DNA of 64,000 nt, taken from NCBI RefSeq assembly GCF_032362555.1, contig NC_083523.1:4997501-5061500 (forward strand), read 5' to 3'. Of the stretch, positions 9,401 through 55,593 are shown in pieces (the first letter of the stretch is position 1; each line of letters starts with the position of its first letter). A model generated the notes under the pieces. That model saw nothing but the letters and a program-made list of their open reading frames with translations, was not told where the DNA came from and made no database searches. Both the position numbers and the translations under genes were made by a program. The stretch is from Amyelois transitella. Taxonomy: Eukaryota > Arthropoda > Insecta > Lepidoptera > Pyralidae.

Positions 9401-12400
9401 GCATATACTGCTACTAAGTGAACAAATTAAAAATTTTGATGAACTTAAGTTTTATTATTTTTGATTTTTTTTCAGGTAGCTCACACACATGATACTGACG
9501 CACTGTTCAGGGAACAGAAAGAAAGGTATATATGTTTCTAAAAAACTGTTTTATTTTATTTTCTAGAAGCACCACAACTAATCGCTTATTTTTTCAGGCA
9601 TAGACTTGAAATGGACCGATTGCAAAATGATTTATTGAAAGCAAAAAATAGATTGGAAGATAAAGTAAGCATAATGAACATACATTTTGAATTTCAATAT
9701 ACAACTTGATTTACATTATAATATTTAAGTTGGTTATCAGGTATTGCTTGAGTTAGAGTTCAAGTGAGTTTAAGTTTTCTCCTGAGTCTCCTTAAGATCT
9801 CGCAAGAATGCTACCTAATGTTTTCTTAATTCATATTTAATTTTATAGTACTAGCATATTGGTTGTTATATACTTAGCTGTTTTAAATCTCTCATGAGCA
9901 ACATAATCCCCAACGAAACAAATTGTTATTTTGTCATAGGAAAAGGAAATAAAAACGCTAGAACGTCGTTGCATGGACCGAGACAGAGAGAAAGAAGAGT
10001 TACTCATAGAGAAGGGTGCCACAATAAACCGTTTAGCTGCCGAATTGGAGGCCGCTCAAACAAGGCTTGTTAGTGGGGAGTCCGCGCGGTTGAAGGAGAA
10101 AGTGTCCCAACTGACAACTGAGAGGAACGCCGCTAGGGAACAGGTTAAGGAGCTGGGGGTAAGTGGAGTTTGCGTTTTCTTGCATAAAACTAATGATCGA
10201 AATCTAGGGAAATTATTATTTTAATGATGTGGTCTCAATTACGTTGGGTGCGTCTATAACCATGGTCCAAGCGGGTAACGGCAAAAAAAGTCAGACTCGA
10301 ACCGATTTCAACTTCAGACAAGTGGACGGTTTACATGACCTTCTTACAATTGAATCTATCTCTCATCTTCGCACATTCCCAGTTGCGTCCTCCACTATAG
10401 GTATCGCTTCAGGGCCTGGGATCCGCTTTTTCACTCCTGAATCGTGGTCATATTATAAATTTGGTCTAGGCCAAACGCCGGAAGGATAGGGGAAAGTGGG
10501 GTAAAAACGGGACGTTAAGGGAAATATTAAATAAAAAATATATTATTTAAAATATAAATCAACTTTATTAATCTTTGTTTAGTTTACTTTATCAATCACA
10601 GATTTTTTCAATGAGATCACTTTTTTATTATTCTAAGTACACAAAAATACAAAAAAATCAAGGCTTTAGTATTTACGATTTTGCCCCATGCCTAGTCCAA
10701 AACCGGGTATACCCGACTTTGCCCCATTAGCAACGGAAGCAATAGAACTCATCAAGGTCTTCTGGCTCCCAACCGGTACAGCCTTCATGAGCCCATTTTT
10801 TACATTTAAGGCATTGCACCCAATCATCGCTTTTTCGTGTGTTTCCATAAATTTCAGTGCAATAAATACACATATCATCTGAAATCTTTTTCTTTTTAGA
10901 TTTTACCAAATCATTATTTAACTGCGGAATTTTTGTTGGGTTCTTTATTTTAGCATTATTTTTTTCAAGTTCCGATTTGTAAGGCGATGAAGTTATTATG
11001 GCACTTTTTCCTCGACGAGCATTTGAAGTAGTCTTTCTTAAAAATATCAGTCGGAGAAAAAGCCAGAAAAGAATCTGGTTGCCGAGAAGTGCTCGGTTGT
11101 GGACTAACTGCCGACCTCTCATATGTATTCGTTTGTAAATTTACTATTGATCTTTTTGTTATTTGTTTTTGCAGTGAAACCGCGGGGTTTTGTTTTGTAA
11201 CGTCTGAACTAATACCAATGTTTTCATCATGATCTACAACCGAATCGTGACCAGAAATGTTAGTCATGAGATCAGAAGATGCGAGGTCATTATCTGTTGT
11301 ATTAGCTGATATAAAGTCATGATCTGAAAAAATATTAGGATTTAATGGATAAATTCCTGTTTTAGAAAAGCCACTCATAGCATTTTGTAGAGTTGCGGCT
11401 TTGGCATATGCAATTCCAAAAAGCTTTCCAACTTGAAATTGGGTTACGATCCGACCTGGATTATTACGCAACCACGTCATTACTTCTTGGCTGTAATAAG
11501 TGCTTAGTGGTCCCATGATGCTAACGTCCAAAGGTTGTAAGCGGTGTGTGCAATGGGGAGGAAAACTGACTATGACGACTCCGTTCTCTCGTGCTTTATC
11601 AATCAAAGGAAGATTTTTCGTATGCGTTGCGTGACCATCTAGTAAAAGTAAGATAGGATCATCTTTGGTAGGTTTAACATTAGCTATAAAATGGCTTAGC
11701 CAGTGAACAAATATGTCACTTTGAATCCACCCACTGGGATGGCACATTGCAATCGTGCCAGGTGGCGTACCATCTAATAATTCAGCCTTCATTCGGACTC
11801 TTGGGAAAATCAAAAGTGGTGGAACATAAGCACCAGCTGCCGATACACACATAACCGCTGTAGTCAACTGACCCCTTTCAGCAGATGAGATAAGACCTAC
11901 TTGTTTCTTGCCTTTTAAAGACAAAATTTTGGATTTCTTCTTAGGCACAGTCGTGATCCCGGTTTCGTCCACATTATAAATCTTGGTTGGTCCAAATTTG
12001 TACTTGTCTTGCAACTCAATCAGCAGAGAAAAAAATTTGGCGACATTTACTCGATTAAATCCCATTGCACGTGCGACGGACGTAGGCTCCGGAAGGCGTA
12101 ACGATAACTCTGGATGGCGACGTAAAAATCCGTAAAGCCAATCCATTCCAGCTAACTCAGTGTCTCTGTTGAAAGTATGATTTATACCATTTTTCTCTGC
12201 CATTTGAAAGGCAAAATGTCGAAAATCCCTGTATGTCAGTCCAAATAGCTGAGCTTCAAGATCTTTTATATGCTGACACATTAAATCTTCCTGTTCCTTC
12301 GTAAATACAGTCTTAAAACGACCCAAACCTTTTTTTGACGCATCTTCAACATTTCTATTTAATCGATACTTTTTTACTCTATCTTCCAATGTCGATTGCG

Positions 12401-15400
12401 GAACCGAGAATTTTCGAGAAGCGAGACGATATCCACACCTTCCTTCTGTTACTTCTAAAATAGCATTTCTCATAGAAACCTCACTCCATGATTGTCGATT
12501 TGTAGTTCTTTTATAATTACGTGGCATTTTCTTGAAAACTACAACAAATATACATATAAAATGAAAATAAATGGAAAAATAAATATGACGGCGAAATTGT
12601 ACAAAACCGGGTACCACCCGATATTACCCCGTACGGTTTTGCCCCAAACACAACGACAATAAATAATTTAATAAACTAACCTAAAAACGAGAAGCAATAA
12701 AAATCTAAGCAATATTGTTAAATCTTAATAAAATTGTTGATGTCATATAAAAAAACAAATCCCACATACCTGAACGTTACAATAGATTGTTAGACTTATG
12801 AAATCTAAGGTATATTACATCCAGATACCGTAAAAACTTTTTTCTTGATTATTTTCTACAAACACGCGTGAACGTCTTTCAACTTTTGTTGGCAAACTAA
12901 TCAAGATGGCCAACTGTAGTACTCAAAGCGCGCGTAAATTTGAAACTCAATATGTAGATATAGTAGCATGTCCCGATTTTACCCCCATACCCGGTTTTGG
13001 ACTAATCTCCCCTTTTTAATTTTTATGGTATCATATCAAATATAAAAGCTTCAGAGATATTAGACCTTCCTATGGTTTTGGTTTGTTTGAACAGGGGATC
13101 ATGTTTCTTTGCAAGCGACTGTATGTTACGTGATTTACAATAAATTTCCTTTGTTTTCAGTCAAAATTGGAAGTGACTGCGCATGAGTTAGTACTGTGTC
13201 GCAATAAACTGTCAACCAGTCAGAAGGAGTACGACAATTGGCGATCGACTCTCAATCAAATTTTGACCGAATCTTTACCAGATAACACATATTTAGGTGA
13301 GTCTATCACAATGGAAAGCGAAGAATTATCTTTCTAACTGTAACAGTATTCTCTACATAAATATATACCTCTTTTATAAATTACACTGATGTAAGTACCA
13401 GGTATATCGGTGCAGTACACATAAGTAAATTTTGTATAGCGCGAAATATTTCAGTGGAGCCTATCAGAGCGCGCCATTTGAACCCGCGAACAAAACTGCT
13501 CGCTACTATACGACTGTTGTGAGCTAGATGCAGGAGACATTTTGTCGCTTGCATATAAAGTTTTACGAACTTTAAAAGAGGTCGTTTTTTTATTGAGTTT
13601 TCATTAGGATCTCATTACGTTTGATTGGGCGGTAGTCTGCGCCATTGAATATGCCGAGGAACTTATAAACATTATAGCACTGTACTCGTATTGTCATTTT
13701 TTACATATGTGATCAAAAGTCTTTTCAAGATTGTTGGCTCTGTCTAACCCACGAGGGATATAGACGTGACTATATGTGTGTATGTGATCACATCCCACTT
13801 AGCTCGATTAAACTTAGTTTAGCCAAAATAAATAAACGAATAATTAATATAAAATCATTTTTGTTATAGGTGAACCACCTTCGCCCGGTAAATTGACGAC
13901 GTTAAAAGAAATCCTCAGTAGATATAAACTTCAACTACAAAAACTGCCGACATTACAAGAAGAGATTGTCAAAAGGTAAAAATTGTAATACCTATAGTCA
14001 ACTTAAAACAAAAATTCCCTTTTATTTCTGCTCCTAGGAGACATTTTATGGCACATGGAACACGGGTGACAACGATTACTATTTTTCTTTATTTTTCCAA
14101 ATTGTTTTTTGTCAATAAAATTGCTTTTTGCACTAAGAGCTCAAATTATATCTATTTCTTTTTGTATCAAACTGTTCATTATAACGACTAAGTTCTCAAA
14201 AATATCGTTCGAACTTCATTAGTAAAACAATGCTAACACTTTCAGGGACAAAAAATTAGAACAGCATCGCAAACAAGAATCAGAACTTCGGTCAAAAATA
14301 GAGGAGCACAAAGGTATAGAGATGCAACTGAACTCTCGAATAGCGGTGCTTCAGAATAAGTTGGAATTGTTAGGGAGCAACTCTGATAGCGATTTACTCG
14401 AAAGTTACAAAGCACAGAATGAACGGCTGCAAGCGGAGATTGAGGAAGCAAGAGCGGAACTTAAAAAGGTAAATTTAGCTCGTCATTAATTTAGCAAATT
14501 TAAAAATAAGTATTTCCAACTTACCGTTCTGAGCCCCTCTGACTGAATGCTATGCTACTACTACATCTACAAACTCTGAAAACCACTAAATAGTCTTATG
14601 TTCATAAAAGTCACATTACACCTTGATAAGGTTACATTAGCTCTATTATTTGCGCGAGGTTCCGCGCTTGTGGGATGTCCCAGAGGAAAGTCTATTTTAC
14701 TCCTACCCTATTCTATCCCTGTTTTAAAATTTTGCCAAAATCGGACCAGTATTATGAGATTTAATAAAAAAGTATAAACCTAACATTACGCTGAATCATG
14801 ATAGAATATGACGACAGTCAACTTTGAAGAATGAATTTAGTTATGTAAGTGCAAATTACTCTAACCAACCTGACCTGTCCAGTCTATACACATCAGAGAA
14901 TTTAATTTATTTTCACTTTCAGCTGGATCTCAAGTACACAGAGCTAGAATTGGAATACGACAAGTTGAAGTCGGAGAAAGGCAGTCGCGCGTCTATCGTA
15001 CAAGAAGCCAACGCGGACCTACTTAGAGAATTGGAGCGGTACAGCGCGCAACTCAAAGATACGCTCAAAGAGAACGGAGAACTTAAGAATTTATATCTGC
15101 AAGTAAGTATTAAGTTGTCGAAACTATTTATGAAAAAAAAAACAACAATTTTAAACAAGTTATGTTTGTGTTCGCAATTTTATTACGTTGGGTAAAAATA
15201 TCCATCAGCTTGGTGTTTTTCTATCGTGTCTTCCTTGCGAAGGACCAAGGTCCGCCTATAAACGTTCTAATAGTGGAGAGTGAGGTAACTTTGTAAGTGT
15301 AGTCACGCGTTGTCGTACAAGAAGAAAAAGCAAAAGCACTTACTTGGTACAGCGCCCAGTTAAAAGATATCTTTACTGGTAAACAAACGGTTTCAACAAA

Positions 15401-20872: not shown

Positions 20873-20878
20873 TTTATT
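20873..20878 (-). terminator. AMT poly(A) signal overlapping the stop codon
   Basis: On the minus strand the coding end reads AAG AAA TAA AAG, so the stop (20876-20874) is nested in AATAAA (20878-20873). I saw no other AATAAA on this strand in the next 60 nt. The 3' UTR would be only about 10-30 nt. Confidence 0.6.
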
Positions 20879-22124
20879 TCTTAATATAATAATGTGATGG
20901 CACGAAAGGCATTTTACCAACTACACACGGCACATCTTTTCCTCGGATATTGACCAGTAGCTCGGTGCCTGCCTTCTTGAGTGCTTCCGACACGTACCCC
21001 ATTGCTACATTACCACCGAGAGAAGGACTGGGGCAACCACTAGTCACTTTTCCCACAACTTCAGAGGTTTTCTTATCTTTCAACACAGCATCCTTCCTCG
21101 CAGGAGCACCGGTTTCCATTCTTATTCCTACTCGCCTTTTAGTTACTCCTTGTTTTATTTGTCTCAATATTATTTCTGCCCCTGGAAAATTTGCATCGAC
21201 TCTTCTAGGTTTTGATATCAACCATGTGAGGTTAGCTTCCACTGGAGTAACGCTCTCGTCGATGTCGTTGCCATAAAGACACAATCCCGCTTCCAAACGC
21301 AACGAGTCCCTAGCTCCTAAGCCGGCGAGTTTGACATCATTACACTGTAGCAGAGCTTCGGTGACTGTATCAGTCTTGTCCGCTGGAATCGATATCTCAA
21401 CGCCGTCTTCCCCTGTATAACCACAGCGAGTTACGCGACAAGGTACTCCTGCTACTGATCCCACGCGTGAATTCATAAAATACAAGTCATTGAGTTTTAT
21501 ATCGGTTAAAGACTGCACAGCTGTAGCAGCCTTCGGGCCTTGGACCGCTATCAAACCTCTTTGGTTCACGTCCCAAAACTCTATATTCACATCTTTACCT
21601 TTCTTTCTAAATAATTCCGATGTTTCCTTCATATGTTCTTTATCAACCTCTAAACGGCCCGCATTAGAAACAATATAAAGAGTTTCATTATTTACTTTAG
21701 TTACAATCAAATCGTCAATGATTCCTCCCTTAGCGTTCAGGAACACAGTCAATGAGCTGGAGCCATCCGGCATACCTTTCAAATCGACGGGGCAAATTGA
21801 TTCAAACCAAGCTATACAGTCTTTACCCTTAACATTAGTCTGTAACATGTGTGAAACGTCGAAAATCGATGCACTTTTTCTGGTAAATAAATGAGAAGCG
21901 GACACACTCTGATCTGAATACTGCACAGGCAACAGAAAGCCTGCAAAGTCGACTACTTTACCACCGTATTTGATATGTAAGTCATATAAAGGTGTTTTGG
22001 AGGGCTGTTTCCCGCTTTCGCTATAAGGGCGTAAACTGCATAATGCGACACTGCTTTGTTTCACATTAAGTACGTTTTTCGCGAGACGCGCAATATTTAC
22101 ACTCTGTAGAGAACACATTTCCAC
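20874..22124 (-). CDS. AMT: Aminomethyltransferase, glycine cleavage system T-protein, mitochondrial
   Basis: A single uninterrupted 416-aa frame. It starts MEMCSLQSVNIARL, with a basic, Ser-rich stretch of about 45 residues typical of a mitochondrial targeting peptide. The mature protein follows: PLYDLHIKYGGKVVDFAGF, then IFDVSHM, GGIIDDLIVT, RGLIAVQGP, RCGYTGEDGVEIS, ARDSLRLEAGLCLYGNDIDE and the C-terminal GCMT beta-barrel. These are the T-protein signatures. It transfers the aminomethyl carbon from lipoylated H-protein to tetrahydrofolate, releasing ammonia, in the matrix. Length matches animal AMT (about 400 aa). The absence of introns is unusual here. The stop codon TAA is part of the only nearby AATAAA. 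It is convergent with the Asterless-like gene. Confidence 0.97.
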   Translation of the reverse strand: MEMCSLQSVNIARLAKNVLNVKQSSVALCSLRPYSESGKQPSKTPLYDLHIKYGGKVVDFAGFLLPVQYSDQSVSASHLFTRKSASIFDVSHMLQTNVKGKDCIAWFESICPVDLKGMPDGSSSLTVFLNAKGGIIDDLIVTKVNNETLYIVSNAGRLEVDKEHMKETSELFRKKGKDVNIEFWDVNQRGLIAVQGPKAATAVQSLTDIKLNDLYFMNSRVGSVAGVPCRVTRCGYTGEDGVEISIPADKTDTVTEALLQCNDVKLAGLGARDSLRLEAGLCLYGNDIDESVTPVEANLTWLISKPRRVDANFPGAEIILRQIKQGVTKRRVGIRMETGAPARKDAVLKDKKTSEVVGKVTSGCPSPSLGGNVAMGYVSEALKKAGTELLVNIRGKDVPCVVGKMPFVPSHYYIKK

Positions 22125-22952
22125 GGCTCACGACATACGCGTTCAAGGCACTTTACAAAACTGTAACCATACTTATCATCTCAGAAGAGGGTCAAAAGTT
22201 CGAACAAAAACAGTTGGTTTAAGATAAGCTAATGTCTTATTACAGAAAAACATAGAGATTACATCATTTGGAAAAGTCATATTTATCTCTTCGGTTATTT
22301 AATTAGTATGATAATTTTTGCTCAAGACTTGGCTCTGTTTACCTAAGGTATTTTGTTATTTAATAAGGTAGGTATATGTTTGATTTAAGTAAGGATTACG
22401 GAGTGGACAGAGCTATCAGTCTTGAAGGTCACGTTCAGATGGCTGGCTTAAAGCCATGTATGATATAGATTATATATCATAAAATCATCTATATAATTGC
22501 GCCAGAAAGAAAAGAATATTAACGAAAATTAAAAAAAAATAACTTATAACAAAATGAGGCTTCGCTGCCGTGTGAATTTCGCGATTATAGTAGGTACCCA
22601 AATGTGTCAGTAGTAACTCGCCACTCATACGCATTTCGTCATTACATTTTTTTATGTCACATCTGTATTTTTGGTGACACCTAAGAACATCACACACTAT
22701 AAATTGTGATGACAAGATTAGGAAATGATTAGATACCTACCTAGTGAACAGAATTAAATGAAGAAAATTATACATTGTCCTCTTTCACTTTCTCCACACT
22801 CATTACACTTTTCATACATATTCGATGATTATGGGTACTCCTAATATTACTTTTTTATATAACTTTTATTAGACATTCGGAATTTAATCTCTCAAAATTT
22901 CGACGAGGTCAGGCCTGTCCCACTTACAATCAGCTCTATAAATTCCTTTGAC

Positions 22953-23115
22953 TTTGTGTGGGTTATTGGACTTATGATAATAATCCCACAAGTATCAAAC
23001 CTGTATGTAATGTAATTAACGATTGTATCTTGTGTTAAATTTAAGATCTGTTACAATGGGACTGACATGTCTTTATGACAAAAGTCCTTTATTTAAATAA
23101 AGATTAAAAAAAAAA
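22953..23115 (+). mobile_element. 5'-truncated non-LTR retroelement copy with 9-bp TSD
   Basis: A 163-bp insert ends in TTTAAATAAAGATT plus an A-tract. It is flanked by TCCTTTGAC at 22944-22952 and 23116-23124. Poly(A) tail plus variable-length TSD indicates LINE-type retrotransposition. Family unidentified. The region 22125-23452 around it has no gene. Confidence 0.7.
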
Positions 23116-23147
23116 TCCTTTGACAAGTTACTACTAATTATTAATCA

Positions 23148-23183
23148 GGCGTAACTGATGCTTCTAGAAGCATCAGTTACGCC
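23148..23183. repeat. Perfect 36-bp palindrome without loop
   Basis: Two 18-nt arms meet at TTCT/AGAA (centre 23165/23166); every base pairs with its mirror. It lies 24 bp right of the retroelement copy. The core ATGCTTNNAGAAGCAT is shared with the hairpin at 39160-39197. Confidence 0.8.
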
Positions 23184-23452
23184 TACTGCTAGCAGTAACA
23201 TCCCTGGGAAGGTGTGGTTAAATCAGATCACTTTCATGACCCAGTTAATAGGGTTATCAACTCGGCTTGTTAAACAATGTTAGTTTACTGTAACTGTTAG
23301 TCAACTCTTACAATATGCACTGGAAAATCTGACAGGTTTCTATCTTCTTTACGTAATTAATGGATAATTAATTTATAATGATAAACCAACAGGTCAGGTT
23401 CTTAAATAAAAATTAAGTTCTAATCAAAAGTCTATTTATACTATAACATAAG

Positions 23453-23977
23453 CTATGTACTTTCAAAAAGTTTAATATATTCTTCATGACTCAACAACTT
23501 GTTCTTTGCCGCCTCTGAATTAGCAATACTGGAAAGAATTATTGCAATATAGCCATTAGCATCTGGCATTTCTTTTAGCAGTTCTGGATGTTTAACCAGC
23601 TGTTCATTGACCTCAATCAGAGTTCCCTTCAAGCCACAAGGAACATCAAAACTACTGCCATCACTGTACTCTATTTTACAAATAATAGAGTTTGGTGTCA
23701 ATATCTGACCACCTTTCTTGCCTTTACCCTTCACAGTATTGTTGAGACGATCCACATTACCAATTGAAAAATTAATGGTGTATTTCATATCTTTCTTGAA
23801 AAAGAAATGGCTCGGAGCCAAGCTCAAAAGTGTAATTCGGTTTGAGTGAAACATGAGCATTATGTCATTGTTCTCTACACCATCAACATTTAGAATATAT
23901 CTTTTACTGAAGTATCTGTCTGTGAACGACTTAACATTGGCTATGTCTGGTATCGAGTCTAAAATCTTGTACTCCAT
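23453..23977 (-). CDS. ABITRAM: ABITRAM/FAM206A (Simiate) family protein
   Basis: A single-exon frame of 174 aa (vertebrate ABITRAM about 180 aa). Recognisable features: SFTDRYFSKRYILN near the N-terminus, HSNRITLLSLAPSHFF, KGKGKKGGQILTPN, CKIEYSDGSSFDVPCGLKG, LIEVNEQLVKHPELL and DANGYIAIIL. These match the family, which has a fold related to the glycine-cleavage H protein. Mammalian Abitram/Simiate binds actin and affects transcription at nuclear speckles; insect function is unknown. The start codon is 14 nt after the CMC2 stop codon on the same strand, which leaves no room for its own promoter, so it is probably the second cistron of a shared mRNA or uses a promoter inside CMC2. Confidence 0.9.
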   Translation of the reverse strand: MEYKILDSIPDIANVKSFTDRYFSKRYILNVDGVENNDIMLMFHSNRITLLSLAPSHFFFKKDMKYTINFSIGNVDRLNNTVKGKGKKGGQILTPNSIICKIEYSDGSSFDVPCGLKGTLIEVNEQLVKHPELLKEMPDANGYIAIILSSIANSEAAKNKLLSHEEYIKLFEST

Positions 23978-23991
23978 ATTATAATAAATGT

Positions 23992-24487
23992 TTATGAACT
24001 GTTTGTTGCTGAAGCAGCTGCCTTCGCTCTCTCTGATGCTAAAATTCGGGCATGAATTTCGGCGTGGCGTTTTCTAGAATCTTCTAAGTTAGCTCTTTGC
24101 CGACGTAGTCTCTCTTGCTTAAGACACCGTCTCATAGCCGAATCATAGTCATTACAATATCCCATAAACTTTCGAAATGGATGCTGTAATCACAATGGTT
24201 TTATTAAAGCACACAAAAATTAAACAAAACGAAGAGTATTAAAAAAATTTGATTGCTTCATGATTCTAACCTGTTCATTTCTTTATATTTATCTATATAA
24301 TTAGTATTAATAGTTTTTGTACTTTAAATGCTTAAGTATCAAGCTGAAACATATAAAAAATTTTAGGTTAAGTCTTGAATTGGTTATTTTAGTATTATTT
24401 TTGTACCTCTGTATGACAGTCCATTAATTTCCTAATCAAAACATTACATTCCTCCGTATGCAAATGTGGCGACAAATCAGTGTGCAT
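23992..24487 (-). CDS. CMC2: COX assembly mitochondrial protein 2 homolog (CMC2), twin CX9C
   Basis: Two exons: 24487-24407 (27 codons) and 24183-23992 (63 codons plus stop), GT-AG, phase 0. The product is 90 aa. It starts [16 protein letters not shown]. It has two CX9C motifs: [11 protein letters not shown] in exon 1 and [11 protein letters not shown] in exon 2 (after FRKFMGYC). This is the CHCH fold of CMC2, which is imported and oxidised by MIA40 in the intermembrane space and acts in copper-dependent cytochrome c oxidase biogenesis. The C-terminal tail is basic then Ala/Ser-rich and longer than in human CMC2 (79 aa). Its stop is 14 nt from the ABITRAM start. A MITE begins 97 bp upstream of its start codon. 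Confidence 0.93.
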
Positions 24488-24583
24488 CCCTTATGTTTTA
24501 ATTATTACCAAATATCGAAGATTTTGTAGTCAACTTTCAGAATCTTGATTTATTTTTATTTGAATTGAGGCAACTTGAGCAAA

Positions 24584-25304
24584 CTATAGTCCATTTCAAC
24601 TAAGATGATCCCCGTGACAGTTCGATTTTGACAATTTGTAGAGATGTTCTACAATGAAATAATTTCGATTGTTTCTGGTAATCGATAATACTTTATATGG
24701 AAATGAAATCGATTTGATTACTACCAAAGCTTTAAAATATATGATTTGTGTTTTTGTATTTAATTGAAAGTTTATAGTTCATAAATGCATTTTATTAAAT
24801 GTATGTTTTACACAGTGGTTATTAGGTAAAATGAAACAAAATTTGAATAGTATTTTTTTTATTCACTATCTGAGAAATAGAAACACAACTCAACAATAAC
24901 CAACAGTAACAATAACCGAAAACCACGCAAAGATCAATGAAAACACAACTCGCATACAAGGCTGATGCACTCGTACTGACGCGATTGATAAGCGATGACA
25001 AGATGGCCGGCGATTATGTATTGTCCCAGCTCTACGTTATTTCCACGTTCCGTTCTACGTACACGAGTTGCGCAGGTATTTTAAAAAATATATATTTTTA
25101 TTTTCTATTTTGTTAATTTAAAGTAAGCGATACTGTTTTTGTTTTATAAGTTTAAGATGTTTAATTTTAATAAGTTTCGTAATGACGCCGCGATAAAATG
25201 AAAAAATTATACAATTAAATTATTTTTGTTTGTTAAAAATAAAATGCGTAATTCAGAACACGGTGAAATGTCACGGGGATCATCTTAGTTGAAATGGACT
25301 ATAG
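24584..25304. mobile_element. MITE with perfect 36-bp terminal inverted repeats
   Basis: Bases 24584-24619 and 25269-25304 are exact reverse complements (36/36), starting CTATAGTCCATTTCAAC. Reading the ends as TAGTCC with TA on each side gives a TA target-site duplication, as in Tc1/mariner-type MITEs. The 721-bp element has no transposase. Its left end is 97 bp upstream of the CMC2 start, so the CMC2-ABITRAM promoter either lies in that 97 bp or inside the element. Confidence 0.8.
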
Positions 25305-25882
25305 ATCTTTTTTTCTTTTTCCATATAAAAATGACAATTTTGACATGTGTCAATACAAATGTCACAATGTCATGCAGACATTGATAGGATAGGTTTTTTT
25401 ATTGATGTAGATGATTGATACAGATGTAGACGTGGGTAGGGATTGAACTGATAGAAATTATGCCAAAACTTGTATATGTCGCAGAGAAATGAGGATATCA
25501 GAGATTTCACGAAATCTCTAGGTATACCACGAAATCACGGAAGATGGTGAATATTCCTATTTAATACATCTTCTAACTAAAAAAATATTAGTGATATGAC
25601 AAAATACTATTTTAATCTGATATATCATTTCACTCATATAAATCTAGTGAAATAAAGAATGAAAAAGGTTCGTGCTAAGTCCTTTTAAAAGTACTTACAT
25701 AATCATTAACCTAACCTAACCATTTTTTTTTTCGGACAATATATATATAAATTTAAGAAATAATAAATTAATTGTCAATTTTATCATTATGTTCTTATCA
25801 TTCAATTGTCAATATTATCTTATCAATATTATCATTATGTACTTACTTATCATTAAATTAATTGTCAATATTATCATTACTA

Positions 25883-26371: not shown

Positions 26372-26688
26372 AAACGACATTTCACTGACTATTTTATTAA
26401 GAAGGCGTCGTAAATAAGAATATTCAACATATGCCGTGATTTCGTGATATCCCTAGGGATTTCGCGAAATCTCTGGTTACTTCATTTTCCTGCGACTTAT
26501 ATATGTAACTTGTGTATATACGTGTATCAAAGCAAGACATCATGTTTAATCATTTAAACGTTTATATGTATACTTTCCTTCTGTATAAAAACGGGTTATG
26601 TAATTAGCTTATATTTCTTCCACCGATCCGATCCGGTAGACAAAGCACTTCTACTTTCTACTTTTGTTTATATTATGACTAGCTGACC

Positions 26689-28536: not shown

Positions 28537-40313
<11,777 letters not shown>

Positions 40314-41299: not shown

Positions 41300-41818
41300 T
41301 TTAGGATGATAGGTAATGGTATGCAATGCCTACCTTGGGTTCCCGGCTTCAGTCAGTGGCAAATAATAGTCCAACTGCAGTTCACTTTGTTTATTCTTGA
41401 ATACACATTTATACGGTAGCACAAGCATAAATAGTTGAAGCATAGGGTTGAAGGAGAATAGAGAAAATTTACAACACACAAGGAAAAGCGAAAGAAAAGA
41501 AACAGTTATAAAGCAAACGTAAAAAAATGTGGCGCGTAAACCGAGAAAAATTCTAGGTGAACAGCGGTGAAGCGCATGCGTGCGTACTTTTTTATTTCGT
41601 ATGAATTTCGACTGGCGAGCGCGCGACAGCATGTGTATGGTTCCACTGCATTATTTTAATGACGATACGGTAAGAGTGATATCGTATTAAGTAATAAATA
41701 TATAAATATGTATTTATTTGTGTAACTGTTTTTAATATATTATAAGTGATATCTAGGTCTTGTTTATGAGTTGTATGTGTTAGGTATAATTTATTTAGTT
41801 TGTGTATATGTGCCTACA
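41300..41818 (-). repeat. 3' LTR
   Basis: 519 bp, downstream LTR of the minus-strand element. Matches 45801-46319 base for base by eye with a constant offset of 4501. On the element strand it starts TGTAGGCACA and ends ATCATCCTAAA, so it is TG...AA rather than TG...CA. Confidence 0.95.
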
Positions 41819-41831
41819 TCACCCCCCTCCA
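41819..41831 (-). other. Polypurine tract
   Basis: On the element strand CTGGAGGGGGGTGA lies directly before the 3' LTR TG, as expected for the plus-strand DNA priming site. It is 7 bases from the pol stop codon (41839-41841). Confidence 0.8.
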
Positions 41832-41838
41832 GAGACCG

Positions 41839-44800
41839 TCAAGGGCGATAGAAATCTGGAAAATTCACACGTCGCCCCGAACGGGTGATATAATCTTTTT
41901 GGGTATTAGGTGGGAATATATCGGAATGAGGGATAGGGTCTGCTAAGATGAAAGCAGGTTTAAGTCTGTCTATCGAAACTGTCACCTCTTTGTTATTGTA
42001 AAAAATTTTAAAATATTTATCTCTTTTACTTATTACTTTGTGTGGCCCTGAGTAGGCAGGTTGAAGCGAACCTCGTACGGTGTCGTCTCTAAGGAAGACA
42101 TGGGTACTGGTTGCCAATTCCTTATACACAAAGGGTTTTTGTGGCGCCATGTGATGCGAGGTTGGTAAAGGTCGTAGATGTTTAGCGATTTTTCTTATGC
42201 GGGCTGTGAACTCTGTAACATCAGTAGTAGTGGGAACGTCAGGTTCGAAGAACTCACCAGGCAGGCGTAACGACTCGCCATAAACCAGTTCAGCTGCCGA
42301 GGCCTGCAAATCTTCTTTAAAGGCCGTTCTTACGCCAAGCAGAACCCATGGCAGTGATTCCGTCCAGCTGCCATCAGCATGACAAACTATTGCTGCCTTG
42401 AGCTGTCTGTGAAACCGTTCAATCAGACCGTTGCACGCCGGATGGTAGGCTGTCGTTCTTTTATGTTCGAAGCCCGTCATTTTGGATAGGTATCCGAATA
42501 AGGCGGATTCAAATTGACGGCCACGGTCAGTAACGATAACCGTCGGGCAGCCAAAACGAGCTATCCAGTTTGATAGAAAAGCTTTGGCAACGGTTTCGGC
42601 AGTGATGTCAACTAATGGTATTGCTTCTGGCCATCTTGTAAACCGGTCAATCGCCGTCAGGCAGTACCTATAACCCTGGGATACCGGGAGAGGACCTACC
42701 AAATCTATATGGATTTGGGTAAATCTTGCTCGTGGTAGTTTGTACGTACCGAGTGGAGAATTCACATGCCGCGTAACTTTAGCACGTTGGCACGCGATAC
42801 AGGCTCGTGCCCATTCCCTGCAATCTTTCTTTACGCCTGGCCAGACGAACCTTTCGGAGACTAACTTAGCCGACGCGTTGGGACCAGGGTGGCTCAAAGA
42901 ATGTAAAGAGTCAAATACTTGCCTGCGTAAGACACCTGTCACGAACGGTCTGGGAGTTGTGGTACTTACGTCGCAGGACAAAGGTAAATCACATCCAGGT
43001 ACTTTTAACTGTTCAAGACGTAGTGAAGATCCTTCCTCAATAAGTTTAATTAGTTCTGGATCAGAGGCTTGGCATTTGGCTAAATGCTCGAGATTAATCG
43101 GTTCGCTCAATTCTTCAACGCGCGAAAGTGTATCTGCAACTACATTATCTTTTCCAGATATGTGGCGAATGTCGGTAGTGAATTGAGCGATGTAATCTAA
43201 ATGTCTGTACTGCCTAGGGGAACAGTTAGTTTTCCTCTCGTGAAAAGCAAAACTGATCGGCTTATGGTCAGTGTAAATGGTAAAATGCCTAGCCTCAAGC
43301 ATGTGTTTAAAATATTTAATGGCCTCATAAATGGCTAACAATTCTCTATCATAGGGTGAATACTTTACCTGCGACGGGCTAAGCTTTCTTGAGAAGAAGG
43401 CCAATGGCTCCCAAACACCGTCCTTTAACTGCTGGAGAACAGCTCCAAGAGCTTTGTCAGAAGCGTCTGTTACCAAAGCTAGCTTGGCAGAGCAATCTGG
43501 ATGGGCCAGCAATGCAGCATTGGCAAGTGCTTCCTTGCAGGACTCAAAAGCTGTAAGGGAATCACCTGTTAGGCTTATTGGGTGAGAACCTTTTACAGCT
43601 CCCGTCAATAAAGCATTCAAGGGTGCTTGAGTTGATGCAGCCCGAGGCAGGAATCTCCTGTAAAAATTTAGCATACCTAAAAATCTCCTAAGCTGACGGA
43701 TGTTGGTAGGAATAGGAAAGTCTTTTATTGCCTGAACTTTAGCATCCGTTGGTTTTGTGCCGTGTTCCGAGATATGGTAACCAAGAAAGGTTACCTCAGA
43801 TGCACCAAGAACACATTTGGATGTATTAATGAGCATACCGTAGTCTTTAAGCTTCTTAAAGATTATACGGAGATGCTCTTCATGCTCGTCATCCGACCTA
43901 GAAAAAACGATATAGTCATCCAAATAACAGTACACAAAATCGAGTCCCCGTGTCATTTCGTCAACAAATCTTTGGAAAGTTTGGCCTGCGTTTCGTAGTC
44001 CAAATGTCATGAAAGGAAATTCATATAGTCCGAAGGGTGTTGTGATGGCGGTCTTCTGCACATCGTCCGGATTGACAGGTATCTGATTATAGGCTTTTAA
44101 AAGATCCAAAGTACTGAAAATTTTGCAGCCTGAAATGCTGTGAGCAAAATCATGGATGTGCCTAATCGGATACCTATCAGGTATGGTACGAGCATTAAGA
44201 AGTCGATAGTCTCCGCAAGGGCGCCAACCATTATCTTTTTTGGGGGCCAAGTGTAATGGCGAAGACCACGGACTCTCAGAGGGACGCGCCGTACCATTAG
44301 CTAACATAGCTCGAAATTCGTCGCGGGCTATTTTTAATTTGTCAGGGGCCAGACGACGGGGGGAAGAAGAAACTGGAGGACCTGGGGTTGTGCGAATATA
44401 GTGAACAGTGTTGTGTGGCGTAGTGTTTTGTATACCGGCTGGTCTGGTAATTTCCGGAAATTCGTTAAGAATTTTATGATAACGAGAATCACCAGTCAAG
44501 ATTTTGACAGAATAAATATCATTACAATTAGGTACAGTGGCTATAGAAGATATTGAGGTTGTATTATCAATTAATCTCTTATTTCTACAGTCTACAATCA
44601 AATTGTAAAAGTTTAAAAAATCTACTCCAATTATTGGCCTTGTAACATCGGCAACAACAAAACGCCAGCTATAATTCCTACGTAAGCCAAAATCTAAATT
44701 AAAGTAAATATAACCGTACGTAGAAATGTTAGAACCATTTGCTGCACTTAAATTAAAGTCTGTTTTCGCACGACGATCACGCAGGGCCGATCGAGGAAAG

Positions 44801-44904
44801 ACGCAGAGATCGCTTCCGGTGTCGATCAAAAACTGCAGCCTTGATGTTCGATCGGTGATAAACAGGCGACCAGTGGAAGAAGGAGGGCAATCGTCGGCCA
44901 CCAT
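41839..44904 (-). CDS. pol: Pol polyprotein (protease, RT, RNase H, integrase)
   Basis: An intact 1021-aa frame beginning [10 protein letters not shown]. Protease active site LIDTGSD (DTG 28-30). Reverse transcriptase with [10 protein letters not shown] and YLDD at 327-330. RNase H with TDASD (479-483) and YTDHKPI (544-550). Integrase with an HHCC finger (H668, H672, C702, C705), catalytic D734, D793 and E829, and a C-terminal chromatin-facing tail without an obvious chromodomain. No internal stops or frameshifts. Start and gag stop overlap as TAATG, so translation by termination-reinitiation is likely rather than ribosomal frameshifting. Confidence 0.95.
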
Positions 44905-45779
44905 TATCGACTGCCCTTGGAGTTTCCCGCTGAGTAATCACAGGGCAAGATGCAACGATTGGCCTTTTCTCCAAATTTTGCGTGATACCAGCATAGCGGG
45001 AACTTCTGGTAGTTGGAATGGGACCGCTGCCTTGATCGGGACTTGCTATGGGTGGGACGTCGTGAACTTCGCTCTCTAGACCGTCCGCTCCTTGTTGTCA
45101 AGTCCTGAAGTCTTCTTCGGAGATGCGCAACTTCCTTCTTTAATTCTTCAACCTCGGAAATCTGGTTTTGCTGACTCATTGATGCGACCTTTGGCATTGT
45201 TGAAGTCAGGTCGTTTACTCGATCCGCCAGGTCTGCAAGATCGTCGGGATGAGCAGTAGCAGGTTGGCTTGCAAGTATGGTTTGGATACTATGTGGAAGA
45301 CGGCTAATCCATATAGTTTTTAAGAAATCATCTGGCACATCCAGGCCGGCCAATCCCTTCAGATGCCGTAGAAATTGTGAAGGTTTCCGATCGCCGAGCT
45401 CTTCATGCATTAAAAGTTGTTTCAGTTTATTTTCGTTTGATGCTGTAAGGCGCTTTATTAATTCTGCTTTTAGTTTCTCGTATCTACCGACTGCTGGTGG
45501 GCTAATAATAATGTCTTTCACTTCTCGGGAATACTTGTTATCGAGTTGGCTGATTACATAATTGAATTTCGTAGCGTCACTTGTAATTCCCGAAATCGCA
45601 AATTGTCCCTCCACTTGCGCGAACCAAATTTCTGGTTCTTCAGGCCAGAATGGTGGGACTCGCACGGACACCTTATAAATACCACCAGTACGGGACGAAT
45701 CTTGTCCGTCATTTTTCTCGTCCGACTCGCGTTCCGTGGAAACGCGCTCCTCGCGTGCATCATGAAATCTCTTTTCCAT
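44904..45779 (-). CDS. gag: Gag polyprotein of the LTR retrotransposon
   Basis: I chose the Met at 45779 ([10 protein letters not shown] follows). It gives 291 aa and starts just after the PBS; a longer in-frame Met at 45827 would lie inside the LTR. The N-terminal half resembles insect gypsy capsid ([19 protein letters not shown], then [20 protein letters not shown]). A predicted coiled coil and Arg/Ser-rich basic region follow. The last segment [18 protein letters not shown] is the CHCC zinc finger of the CsRn1 group in place of a CCHC knuckle. The stop codon TAA shares its last A with the pol ATG. Confidence 0.92.
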
Positions 45780-45781
45780 TG

Positions 45782-45799
45782 TTCCAGACGGGGTCACCA
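45782..45799 (-). other. Primer binding site complementary to tRNA-Trp 3' end
   Basis: One base after the 5' LTR the element strand reads TGGTGACCCCGTCTGGAA. TGGTGACCCCG is complementary to an acceptor end ...CGGGGTCA-CCA, as in eukaryotic tRNA-Trp. This primer is characteristic of the CsRn1 group. Confidence 0.75.
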
Positions 45800-45800
45800 A

Positions 45801-46319
45801 TTTAGGATGATAGGTAATGGTATGCAATGCCTACCTTGGGTTCCCGGCTTCAGTCAGTGGCAAATAATAGTCCAACTGCAGTTCACTTTGTTTATTCTTG
45901 AATACACATTTATACGGTAGCACAAGCATAAATAGTTGAAGCATAGGGTTGAAGGAGAATAGAGAAAATTTACAACACACAAGGAAAAGCGAAAGAAAAG
46001 AAACAGTTATAAAGCAAACGTAAAAAAATGTGGCGCGTAAACCGAGAAAAATTCTAGGTGAACAGCGGTGAAGCGCATGCGTGCGTACTTTTTTATTTCG
46101 TATGAATTTCGACTGGCGAGCGCGCGACAGCATGTGTATGGTTCCACTGCATTATTTTAATGACGATACGGTAAGAGTGATATCGTATTAAGTAATAAAT
46201 ATATAAATATGTATTTATTTGTGTAACTGTTTTTAATATATTATAAGTGATATCTAGGTCTTGTTTATGAGTTGTATGTGTTAGGTATAATTTATTTAGT
46301 TTGTGTATATGTGCCTACA
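45801..46319 (-). repeat. 5' LTR
   Basis: 519 bp, upstream LTR containing the expected promoter of the element. Contains TATATAAATATG-like AT-rich sequence near 46200. Borders are set by the TSD AAGG outside and the PBS inside. Confidence 0.95.
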
Positions 46320-51766: not shown

Positions 51767-54700
51767 ATGGTGAAAAAATGTTGTATAAAATTTTGTAAAA
51801 GTGAATCTTATGCAGGTTGTGGGATATCGTTTCACAGGTAAGCCAATCGAAAACAATTTTAAATATTGACAAGTAGGGTGTCCCGGCGATTTATATTTTG
51901 TTTGTATTGTACCACGAAAGGCAAACAAGCTTACGAACAATAGACTGTAAATGATAATTGAGTAATTGGGACTATATCATTTAAATATTTTTAAGAACAT
52001 TTCAGTAGGTACACGTTTAACTACTGACCATTGCAAACTATAAAGTAAATGTTATAATTATTGCAATGAAATACCATGTTACCATGTTGAGTACTATTTC
52101 AAAACACATTATTACATATTATTTGTGGTCACAAGCCAGAGAAATATTTTGATTGTGTGATTATATTCCTTTCAGTTTTCCTAAAGATGGAGAAATGAAA
52201 CAAAAGTGGATAGATGTTATTCCAACGTCGCAAAAAATAACGAAAAACTCCGTTGTCTGTAGCCGTCACTTCAAAAAAGAAGACTTTTATGAAGCTAACT
52301 CGCGACAGCTATTAAAAGTAGATATAATACCATCTGTATTTCCATCGGTATGTATGCGAAGCTAATACATATTTAAGCAAGGAACGTCTACTGCTTTAAC
52401 CCCCGACACAAAAAGAGGGATGTTATAAGTTTGACCGCTAAATGTGTCTGTGGACGTGGCATCATAGCTCTTAAATGAGGAAACTGATTTAGATGCATTT
52501 TTTTTATTTGCTAGCTAATTGTTATGCAATGGTTATTAGCTATGTTTTATCAAAATCAGTTTAAATTTAAAAAATGCGTGGAAAATATTTCATAGCCTAA
52601 ATTATCTACGGTAATTGATAGATTTAAAGTAATTATTAGCTAAATTGTAGTTTATCGTGAGGCGCTTAAAAATTATACAAAAAAAGTCACAGTCGTTCCA
52701 AAGTTAAAGGGAAAAAACTGGGATTTTTAAACGTCTGCGGACGTGACACCATAGCTCTTAAACGGGTAAACTGATTTAGATGTGTTTTTTTTTATTTACT
52801 AACAAAATTTTATGCGATGGTTCTCAAACATGTTTTATCAAAATCCTTTTAGTGTTTAAAAGTAATAGACGAAAACTGCGATTTTTAAACGTAAGCTAAT
52901 CTTTGTGTTGGGGGTTTTTTTTAATTTTCAATTTATAAATTATATGCTTGTTTTATTACCTGGAACGATTTCTAAAATTATTTCTCTGTTAGAAACCTAC
53001 ATTATCCCTGAATGCTATACGCATATAAATAGTACTAGCGTGAGCGAAGCCTCAGGCGGAAAGCTTGTACTTTGTAAAATTATTGTTAGCATAAAAACTA
53101 CTTAGTTTATTTGTTACTTACAATTAACAATTATTACAAGTAAATAATAACAATAACATTGAATAGAAAGTCATATAGTTTGAGATTTGCACTTATTTGA
53201 TACTTCTTTTGCAGGTGGAAAATAAAAATATAAATGTTCTGAGTAACATTATTATACATCCAACATTTCAACCTATTGGAGAAAGTTCTTCAGGTACTCC
53301 AGGAACCTCAAGAGAATCTTGCAATTCTGATGTCGACACACCACCTGCTAAAAAATTCTGTGGGGACGTAAAAGAAATAGCAGTCCAGACTAACATCAAC
53401 TGGAGTCCATCAAAAGATATGCTCAAGCGTAAACTAAAAGTTTTAAATCAAAAGTTGAAAAGGCGCGATATTCGTTTGGACAGTTTAAAGTCACTTCTAA
53501 CAATTTTAAAAAAAAGAAGCAGCAATTTTGATGAGGTTGAACATATGTTAAAAAATAATTTTATGGAAATTCATAAGCAAATGAATAAAGATAAAAGTAA
53601 CAAAGGCGTACGATATTCAAAGGAACTCAAACAGTTTGCTTTATCTTTGTACTTTTATTCTCCAAAAGCATATCTGTTTCTTAGAAATCACACCATGTTA
53701 CCTCACCCTGCAACCTTACGCAAAATGTTAGCGACTCACGAGTGTAATGTAGGATTTATGGTTGAAGTTTTCGAATACTTAAAATTGTCAGTATCCGAAA
53801 ATGATCTCGAAAATGTTGCTTTAATATTTGATGCCATGTCTATTAAATCAGAGGAAGTTTATGATAAACATAAAGATAAAATATGGGGTTATGTAGACTA
53901 TGCTGGAATTGTACCATATGATTCTGAATGTTTAGCCACAGAGGTCCTTGTTCTTCAGATTGTGTCATTTAAACGCAAATTCAAATGTCCTATCGCTTAC
54001 TTTTTTATTGACAAAATTTCAGCCTCAATACAGGCACAGTTATTAATCACAGCAATTAACATGTTATATGATATCGGTATAACTGTTCGAAGTCTTACAT
54101 GTGATGGGACTGCTAGTAACATGGCCACATATGAAAATTTGGGATGCAGTTTCAATTTTCCAGAAATTATTACAAACTTTAAACATCCAAGGAAAGAAAC
54201 TAAAATTCATTGTATATTCGATCCTGTTCACATGCTCAAATTATGTCGTAATGTATTTGCGGAAAAAAACTTAAGTTCTGGAAATGGGCAAATTGAATTC
54301 AATTTTGTCAAAAAATTACATGATTTGCAAGATAAAGAGGGTTTAAAACTTGCAAATAAAATAAACGCTGCCCATATTAACTTTATGGGTAAGAAAATGA
54401 ATGTGAAACTGGCCGCTCAGACTTTGAGTGCGTCGGTTGCAAATGCTATAGACTTCTTACGTGTTAGCAATAATGATGAATTCAAGAACAGCGAAGCTAC
54501 TACTGAATTTATCAGAACTATTGATAGAGTTTTCGATGTCTTAAATGCCAAATCTCCTTTAGGAAAGGGCTTTAAGTCCCCATTGCGGCTTAATAATAAA
54601 GAATATTGGATGAGAATCTTCACTGAAACCCGAGAATACTTATCAAAGCTAAATGTAGAAAACAAATCGATTCTTTTACATCGGCGAAAAATGGGAGTTT

Positions 54701-55593
54701 TAGGATTCATAGTGGATACATACAGTGTTACTAACATAGCCATGGATCTTTTAGTTGAAAACAGTTTAAATTATTTCTTGCCTTATAAAATATCTCAAGA
54801 TCAGTTGGAAATGTTCTTTTCTTGTGTCCGAATTCAAGGCGGTGGTAACAATAACCCTAATGCCTTACAATTTAGGTTCGCTCTGAGGAAATTACTCTAT
54901 CGTAATAGTATTAAGCCGAGTATGAATGCTAACTGTACTGACGATGAGTTTGAATTATCCCCAATTTTGGAATTCCGTAGTGAGAAGCGATCTGTGATTG
55001 AAGCTCAATCGTCTGATCCTCATGAAGAAGAACAATTAGATGCTTTAATGTATTACGTTGAGTCAACTACCATTTCCGATTACAAGATGAATGTCTTGTA
55101 TTATATAGCAGGTCATTTTGTAAACAAGATGTTAGATAAAATTTCATGCCAGTACTGTCACGATGCTTTAGTGATTGCTAAGGAACATTTTGATCACACA
55201 TATTTCGTAGATATTACGAATTTCTCATCTTTTACAGCCTTTGTAGATAAAGGCAGCTTAAAATATGTATCTCGCTTTGCATTTGAAGTGGTAAAGAATG
55301 CTGAAAAATTGTTCCTTTCAGAAATAGCAAATGGTTCTATAAAAGATATAAGAAAAAATAAAATTTTGATGTCTTTAAAGCAAATGTTTCTCACAAAATT
55401 TAATAATTTGTTCTTACACCCTATTGAAAATTATGAAGAACCACATGAGTTACAGCTGGTAAAAACAATAGCTAATTATTATTTAAATTTAAGAATATTT
55501 AATCATCTGAAATCGAACTCATTGAAGAATTTAGGCAGTAAGATAGGCCTGCGTCAAAAACTCCACAAAACAATTTTATTTAGTCATGTGTGA
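51767..55593 (+). CDS. THAP9/P-element-type transposase-like protein, intact
   Basis: Three exons: 51767-51837, 52176-52347 and 53215-55593, GT-AG, 2622 nt, 873 aa. Exons 1-2 encode a THAP domain: MVKKCCIKFC, SFPKDGEMKQKWIDV, CSRHFKKEDF (C2CH zinc ligands). Residues about 140-180 are a coiled coil (KRKLKVLNQKLKRR). Exon 3 encodes the RNase H-like core of P-type transposases: IFDAMSIKSEE (D287), LTCDGTASNM (D378), IFDPVHMLKLCRN (D417) and DQLEMFFSCVRIQGG (E613). The GTP-binding insert lies between the last two. Length equals human THAP9 (903 aa). All catalytic acids are present and there is no frameshift. No flanking TIRs were found by eye, so it may be a domesticated gene or an element with short ends that I missed. 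Confidence 0.88.
52445..52860 (+). repeat. Two degenerate tandem units in intron 2 of the THAP9-like gene
   Basis: Units at about 52445-52570 and 52733-52860 share GGACGTGRCAYCATAGCTC, ACTGATTTAGATG and ATGTTTTATCAAAATC. The rest of the intron is AT-rich. Function unknown; likely old repeat. Confidence 0.55.

Follow-up and report, generated by a model that had tools for sequence, protein, structure and literature searches.

Within a 64,000-nt stretch of the Amyelois transitella genome (positions 4,997,501 to 5,061,500 of contig NC_083523.1, assembly GCF_032362555.1; referred to here as 'the window'), CMC2 and ABITRAM lie one behind the other on the minus strand. The nearest gene identified on the same strand is AMT:

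24487-24407, minus strand: CMC2 exon 1, 81 nt, start ATG at 24487-24485, codons 1-27
24406-24184, minus strand: CMC2 intron 1, 223 nt, GT..AG
24183-23992, minus strand: CMC2 exon 2, 192 nt, stop TAA at 23994-23992
23991-23978, minus strand: intercistronic spacer, 14 nt, A/T throughout bar one C
23977-23453, minus strand: ABITRAM, 174 aa, one exon, uninterrupted frame
20874-22115, minus strand: AMT (aminomethyltransferase), one exon, GCV_T (E=2.4e-81) plus GCV_T_C, 1337 nt downstream of ABITRAM

The spliced CMC2 frame is open across its 2 exons and encodes 90 aa with a twin CX9C motif, formed by the pairs C14-C24 and C37-C47. The Pfam family Cmc1 (PF08583) matches it with E=1.8e-14, covering positions 1-67 of its 70-position profile. 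This match alone does not tell CMC2 from CMC1, and we name the gene CMC2 on what we take to be its N-terminal signature. Reading the frame through a retained intron 1 brings CMC2 to a stop after 30 aa. A single PDB match, to a glycosyl hydrolase with E=0.13, was dismissed as chance.

ABITRAM is read in a different frame from CMC2. At a cutoff of E=0.001, GCV_H (PF01597; E=6.6e-8, profile positions 15-120 of 122) is its sole Pfam match. Among the 8 PDB sequences that it matched at an E of 10 or less, 7 bear the name H-protein, the best at E=0.00076. When aligned to 1zko and 1dxm, it carries G or D opposite the lysine of the ESVKA-type motif, and its stretch facing that motif contains no lysine at all. 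That lysine is presumably the lipoyl site of the glycine-cleavage H-protein. Since the column holds no lysine, we ruled out an H-protein identity. A GCV_H-like domain lacking the lipoyl lysine fits ABITRAM (FAM206A, Simiate), a name that we give partly on putative sequence signatures. A derivation of Simiate from the H-protein is suggested in a passage of PMC3859600. A single-sequence structure prediction reached a mean pLDDT of 33.4 and was set aside as evidence. In water striders, RNAi of Simiate affects bristles and leg length, and the portion of PMC8892508 that deals with Simiate holds nothing on gene linkage. ABITRAM itself contains 11 out-of-frame ATGs against a mean of 7.7 after synonymous resampling (in 99.2% of 2000 resamples the count was 11 or lower), an excess in one of three genes tested that is perhaps due to chance.

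The sequence-only reading had placed the CMC2 intron and stop as listed above, separated the CMC2 stop from the ABITRAM start by 14 AT-rich nucleotides and regarded both proteins as complete. All of this holds: the spacing is as described, both frames are intact and both Pfam profiles are well covered. Because they span these profiles so well, CMC2 and ABITRAM are not random ORFs. The gap between them is unlike the 1337-nt spacing of ABITRAM and AMT, the one neighbour compared.

Could the close spacing be an accident, that is, chance packing, an assembly error or a local rearrangement specific to this species, without functional co-transcription? Such an accident would be compatible with our failure to find a relative locus for comparison: neither ABITRAM nor spliced CMC2 had a relative in the collections of prokaryote and virus contigs searched, which include no insects and therefore have no bearing on whether insects conserve the pair. 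It sits poorly with two intact frames that cover their profiles well, and with the CX9C upstream ORF described before CG9288 in flies and Aedes (PMC2276209; the orthology is our own assumption). We consider it highly improbable. The gene anatomy instead suggests that CMC2 and ABITRAM probably share one dicistronic mRNA.

We searched for signals that might end or start separate mRNAs. Poly(A) signals were scanned as 13 hexamer types over 24100-23100, and the following features bear on the question:

24052-23978, minus strand: ATG-free stretch, 75 nt, abutting the ABITRAM start
23996-23991, minus strand: CATAAA, a putative weak variant of the poly(A) signal that overlaps the CMC2 stop
23093-23088, minus strand: AATAAA, the first canonical signal 3' of both cistrons

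CATAAA at 23996 is the only match to any of the 13 hexamers in 24100-23978, ahead of the ABITRAM frame. No AATAAA occurs from the CMC2 stop to the ABITRAM stop, and the only ATTAAA between the two stops, at 23476, falls in the final codons of ABITRAM. An AATAAA at 24205 lies within the CMC2 intron, and variant hexamers are found within ABITRAM, such as AGTAAA at 23908, AAGAAA at 23797 and AATACA at 23784. Judged by sequence, CATAAA could mark a separate CMC2 3' end, and the intronic AATAAA or the hexamers within ABITRAM could mark the ends of other short mRNAs. On the promoter side, TATAWAW, TCAGT, TCAKTY and RGWCGTG were each absent from 24500-23978, which is weak evidence because only 0.02-0.71 occurrences were expected per motif. 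The 75-nt ATG-free stretch could be a clean leader for an ABITRAM-only mRNA. A search of CMC2 exon 2 for acceptor-like sites that would allow splicing past CMC2 returned none with at least 13 of 20 pyrimidines (a crude filter); alternative splicing may nonetheless be another route. Taken together, the poly(A), core-motif and ATG-free-stretch data thus disfavor separate mRNAs while still allowing them. The earlier statement that separate signals would have 'no space' went too far, given that CATAAA overlaps the CMC2 stop and that a start site could sit within CMC2.

Separate mRNAs would take the form of two overlapping single-gene units, in which ABITRAM starts in CMC2 intron 1 or exon 2, CMC2 ends at the weak signal by its stop, and any mRNA spanning both is minor read-through. 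The positions of the ATG-free stretch and of CATAAA speak for such units, and so does the record from flies: among the 159 dicistronic pairs of FlyBase release 6.04, the section of PMC4528330 on these loci counts 45 that are dicistronic only, 45 with monocistronic mRNAs of both genes and 69 with a monocistronic mRNA of one. The lack of a core promoter consensus in 24500-23978, itself a weak test, argues against them, as does the burden on a transcript started in the intron, which would carry up to 5 exon 2 ATGs (24165, 24152, 24146, 24135 and 24053) before reaching ABITRAM. We regard overlapping units as rather unlikely. They and the full explanation that we favor below are not exclusive, and the probabilities that we attach to the two need not total one. 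Because 114 of the 159 fly pairs have some monocistronic form, extra ABITRAM-only mRNAs starting within CMC2 are likely.

Next, we considered how ribosomes might reach the second cistron of a shared mRNA. The ABITRAM start context (AAT-AUG-G, with A at -3 and G at +4) is stronger than that of CMC2 (GGG-AUG-C, with G at -3 and C at +4). Counting the CMC2 start, 9 AUGs precede the ABITRAM AUG; 6 of them have a purine at -3, 4 are in the CMC2 frame (the start and 3 internal ones), and the frames of all 9 close before the ABITRAM AUG. CMC2 shows no depletion of out-of-frame ATGs, with 5 observed against 4.62 expected from codon-usage sampling or 4.46 from synonymous permutation; AMT, used as a comparison gene, has 17 against 19.0. 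Leaky scanning past the weak CMC2 start, as proposed for Drosophila sloth1/sloth2 and for loci of green algae, would be favored by the difference in start context and by the early closing of the upstream frames. It would have to pass all 9 AUGs, among them those with a purine at -3 and those in the CMC2 frame, in a first ORF that is not AUG-depleted, unlike the algal first ORFs described in part of PMC11892635. On account of the nine AUGs and the missing depletion, we place it low, as a quite improbable route.

Little pointed to a dedicated RNA element. The predicted structure around the gap (23930-24080) was no more stable than expected (z -0.24; 72 of 200 shuffles were at least as stable), and no Rfam family reached its gathering score within 22800-25500. 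The sequence near the gap thus gave no sign of a structured IRES or reinitiation element; an unstructured IRES would be compatible with it. The CMC2 stop sits in the last exon of our gene model, with no exon junction after it; the position of a stop relative to exon junctions bears on mRNA decay, and here it speaks for a dicistronic mRNA. Reinitiation has difficulties of its own. A gap of 14 nt is short for the classical form, and the 90-aa first frame of CMC2 also appears an unfavorable setting for it. In plant protoplasts, classical reinitiation falls steeply above 34 aa (cited in PMC2276209). Given a shared mRNA, and choosing among routes none of which is proven, we nevertheless select reinitiation at ABITRAM, with a confidence somewhat short of even.

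Upstream of CMC2, we found a segment bounded by inverted repeats:

24584-25304, no strand assigned: transposon-like segment, 721 bp, with 40-nt inverted repeats (98%) at 24584-24623 and 25265-25304

This segment is probably a transposon-like insertion, and 96 nt separate its end from the CMC2 ATG. Its own arms aside, the only matches to it in the window are two short partial ones (34 and 45 nt), and an exact search for its inverted-repeat end in virus contigs gave 0 matches. The 96-nt leader between the repeat and the CMC2 ATG is free of ATGs; one lies just within the repeat, at 24594. CpG is densest among the bins counted at 25100-24901, in the middle of the segment, where it reaches 15 per 200 nt. 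In this patch, 24 codons on the plus strand begin with an ATG at 25003, which has A at -3 and G at +4, and are followed by a donor-like GCAG/GTATTT at 25075/25076. The patch may thus hold a promoter or the first exon of a gene running the other way; the 66-aa frame around the ATG had no Pfam or PDB match. The promoter of CMC2 may lie in the 96-nt strip, within the 721-bp segment or beyond it. Just past the segment lies a further inverted repeat pair (25473-25598 and 26378-26501, about 127 nt, 79.5% identity), probably another mobile-element remnant.

Other frames and elements in the window include:

10965-12623, minus strand: transposase-like frame, 552 aa, pogo-like by eye
30268-30894, minus strand: EHD_N frame, E=1.5e-11
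41330-46151: LTR-retrotransposon-like element, judged by eye
53179-55593, plus strand: transposase-like frame, 804 aa, THAP/P-element-like by eye

The EHD_N frame is accompanied by long acidic, E/D/S-rich frames at 31114-31842 and 32321-32680, and by eye these together are perhaps a sarcalumenin-like gene. The LTR-like element contains a pol-like frame of 1032 aa (41839-44937) and a gag-like frame of 308 aa (44904-45830), and its ends carry identical 106-aa frames (41330-41650 and 45831-46151), which suggests a recent insertion. The proximity of AMT to the H-protein-related ABITRAM places two glycine-cleavage-related neighbors side by side, which is probably a coincidence.

We propose the following model for expression of the pair. 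A single promoter 5' of CMC2 would give rise to a spliced mRNA containing both frames, which would end at a poly(A) site past ABITRAM. CMC2 would be read by ordinary cap-dependent scanning. ABITRAM, made in smaller amounts, would most likely be reached by ribosomes that are retained after the CMC2 stop and restart at its strong-context AUG 14 nt further on. As a whole, a dicistronic insect locus with a shared mRNA and a restart at ABITRAM is the explanation that we hold to be best, with moderate confidence.

A bicistronic mRNA had been proposed in the sequence-only reading. It is still the best reading of the gene anatomy, from which the transcript itself is deduced; two of the accompanying arguments needed correction. 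One was that dicistronic genes are rare in insects. The portion of PMC4528330 on these loci reports a polycistronic transcript for 2.5% of protein-coding gene models in FlyBase, in addition to the 159 pairs mentioned above, and describes dicistronic loci as 'no longer a surprise' to FlyBase annotators. The other was that pairing a mitochondrial factor with ABITRAM is unexpected. Hayden & Bosco 2008 described 44 conserved upstream ORFs in Drosophila whose transcripts are enriched in mitochondrial import terms, and CX9C motifs are named for 4 of the 44 in a passage that introduces them by 'such as' (PMC2276209). One of these four belongs to CG9288, with an 80-aa upstream ORF containing CX9C, Ka/Ks values of 0.16 for the upstream and 0.17 for the main ORF, and an arrangement common to an Aedes aegypti EST (PMC2276209). 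The main ORF of CG9288 is labeled 'pyruvate kinase' via InterPro in the same source (PMC2276209), a label that gives clear evidence neither for nor against an ABITRAM identity.

The gene CG42375 lies with CG9288 within one 37-kb interval, according to part of PMC4751556. This shared interval fits an assignment of the two genes to CMC2 and ABITRAM, without proving it. For our own part, we take CG9288 to be fly ABITRAM and CG42375 to be fly CMC2. With the orthology so assumed, CG9288 and its CX9C upstream ORF look like the same pair as CMC2-ABITRAM, and a descent of the pair from an ancestor common with flies rests on the literature together with this assumption.

If the assumed fly orthology is right, the locus described here is the same dicistron, already in print, in another insect, and dicistronic expression of the pair in flies as well as here would make it an operon-like unit of long standing. 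Such a unit could serve to test by what route animal ribosomes get to a second cistron when the first has 90 codons and is not AUG-poor, and whether small mitochondrial CX9C genes regularly stay first cistrons. A more far-reaching reading, which we regard as unlikely, is that the dicistron has been kept since flies and the order of this insect diverged, with the CX9C frame acting as a regulatory uORF. The output of ABITRAM, which has actin and nuclear-speckle functions in mammals, would then be tied to CMC2 translation via reinitiation, despite the 90-codon first cistron. For annotators and experimenters, a practical point is that RNAi or knock-out of CMC2 or ABITRAM may hit both genes.

Finally, we compared the locus with known systems. 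A literature search under the names CMC2, FAM206A, ABITRAM, Simiate and C9orf6 did not find the pair, with CMC2 plus bicistronic outside Drosophila covered partly. The sloth1/sloth2 locus, as described in sections of PMC9681215, resembles CMC2-ABITRAM in its short gap (5 nt there), a second ORF in another frame, a weaker first start context and a small mitochondrial protein in first place. It differs in that sloth1/2 are likely paralogues of one complex, whereas CMC2 and ABITRAM belong to unrelated Pfam families, and in that CMC2 has eight AUGs between its own start and that of ABITRAM. The green-algal loci share with it a short spacer, a short first ORF and a stronger second start context (PMC11892635). 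Leaky scanning is well supported there, and the first ORFs are AUG-depleted, with median observed/expected ratios of 0.71 and 0 in two species, which CMC2 is not (PMC11892635, in the part on these loci). The FlyBase pairs likewise consist of separate frames on the same strand, and the 14-nt gap falls within the range of -34 to 319 nt given for polycistronic-only loci in that portion of PMC4528330; those pairs are backed by cDNA or RNA-Seq, while the shared mRNA of CMC2-ABITRAM is predicted from gene anatomy. The CG9288 locus, likened here by its published description, encodes a CX9C peptide similar in length to CMC2 before the main ORF on one transcript, as CMC2-ABITRAM would. Altogether, CMC2-ABITRAM represents a known kind of arrangement, one that may already be on record in flies for the same pair.
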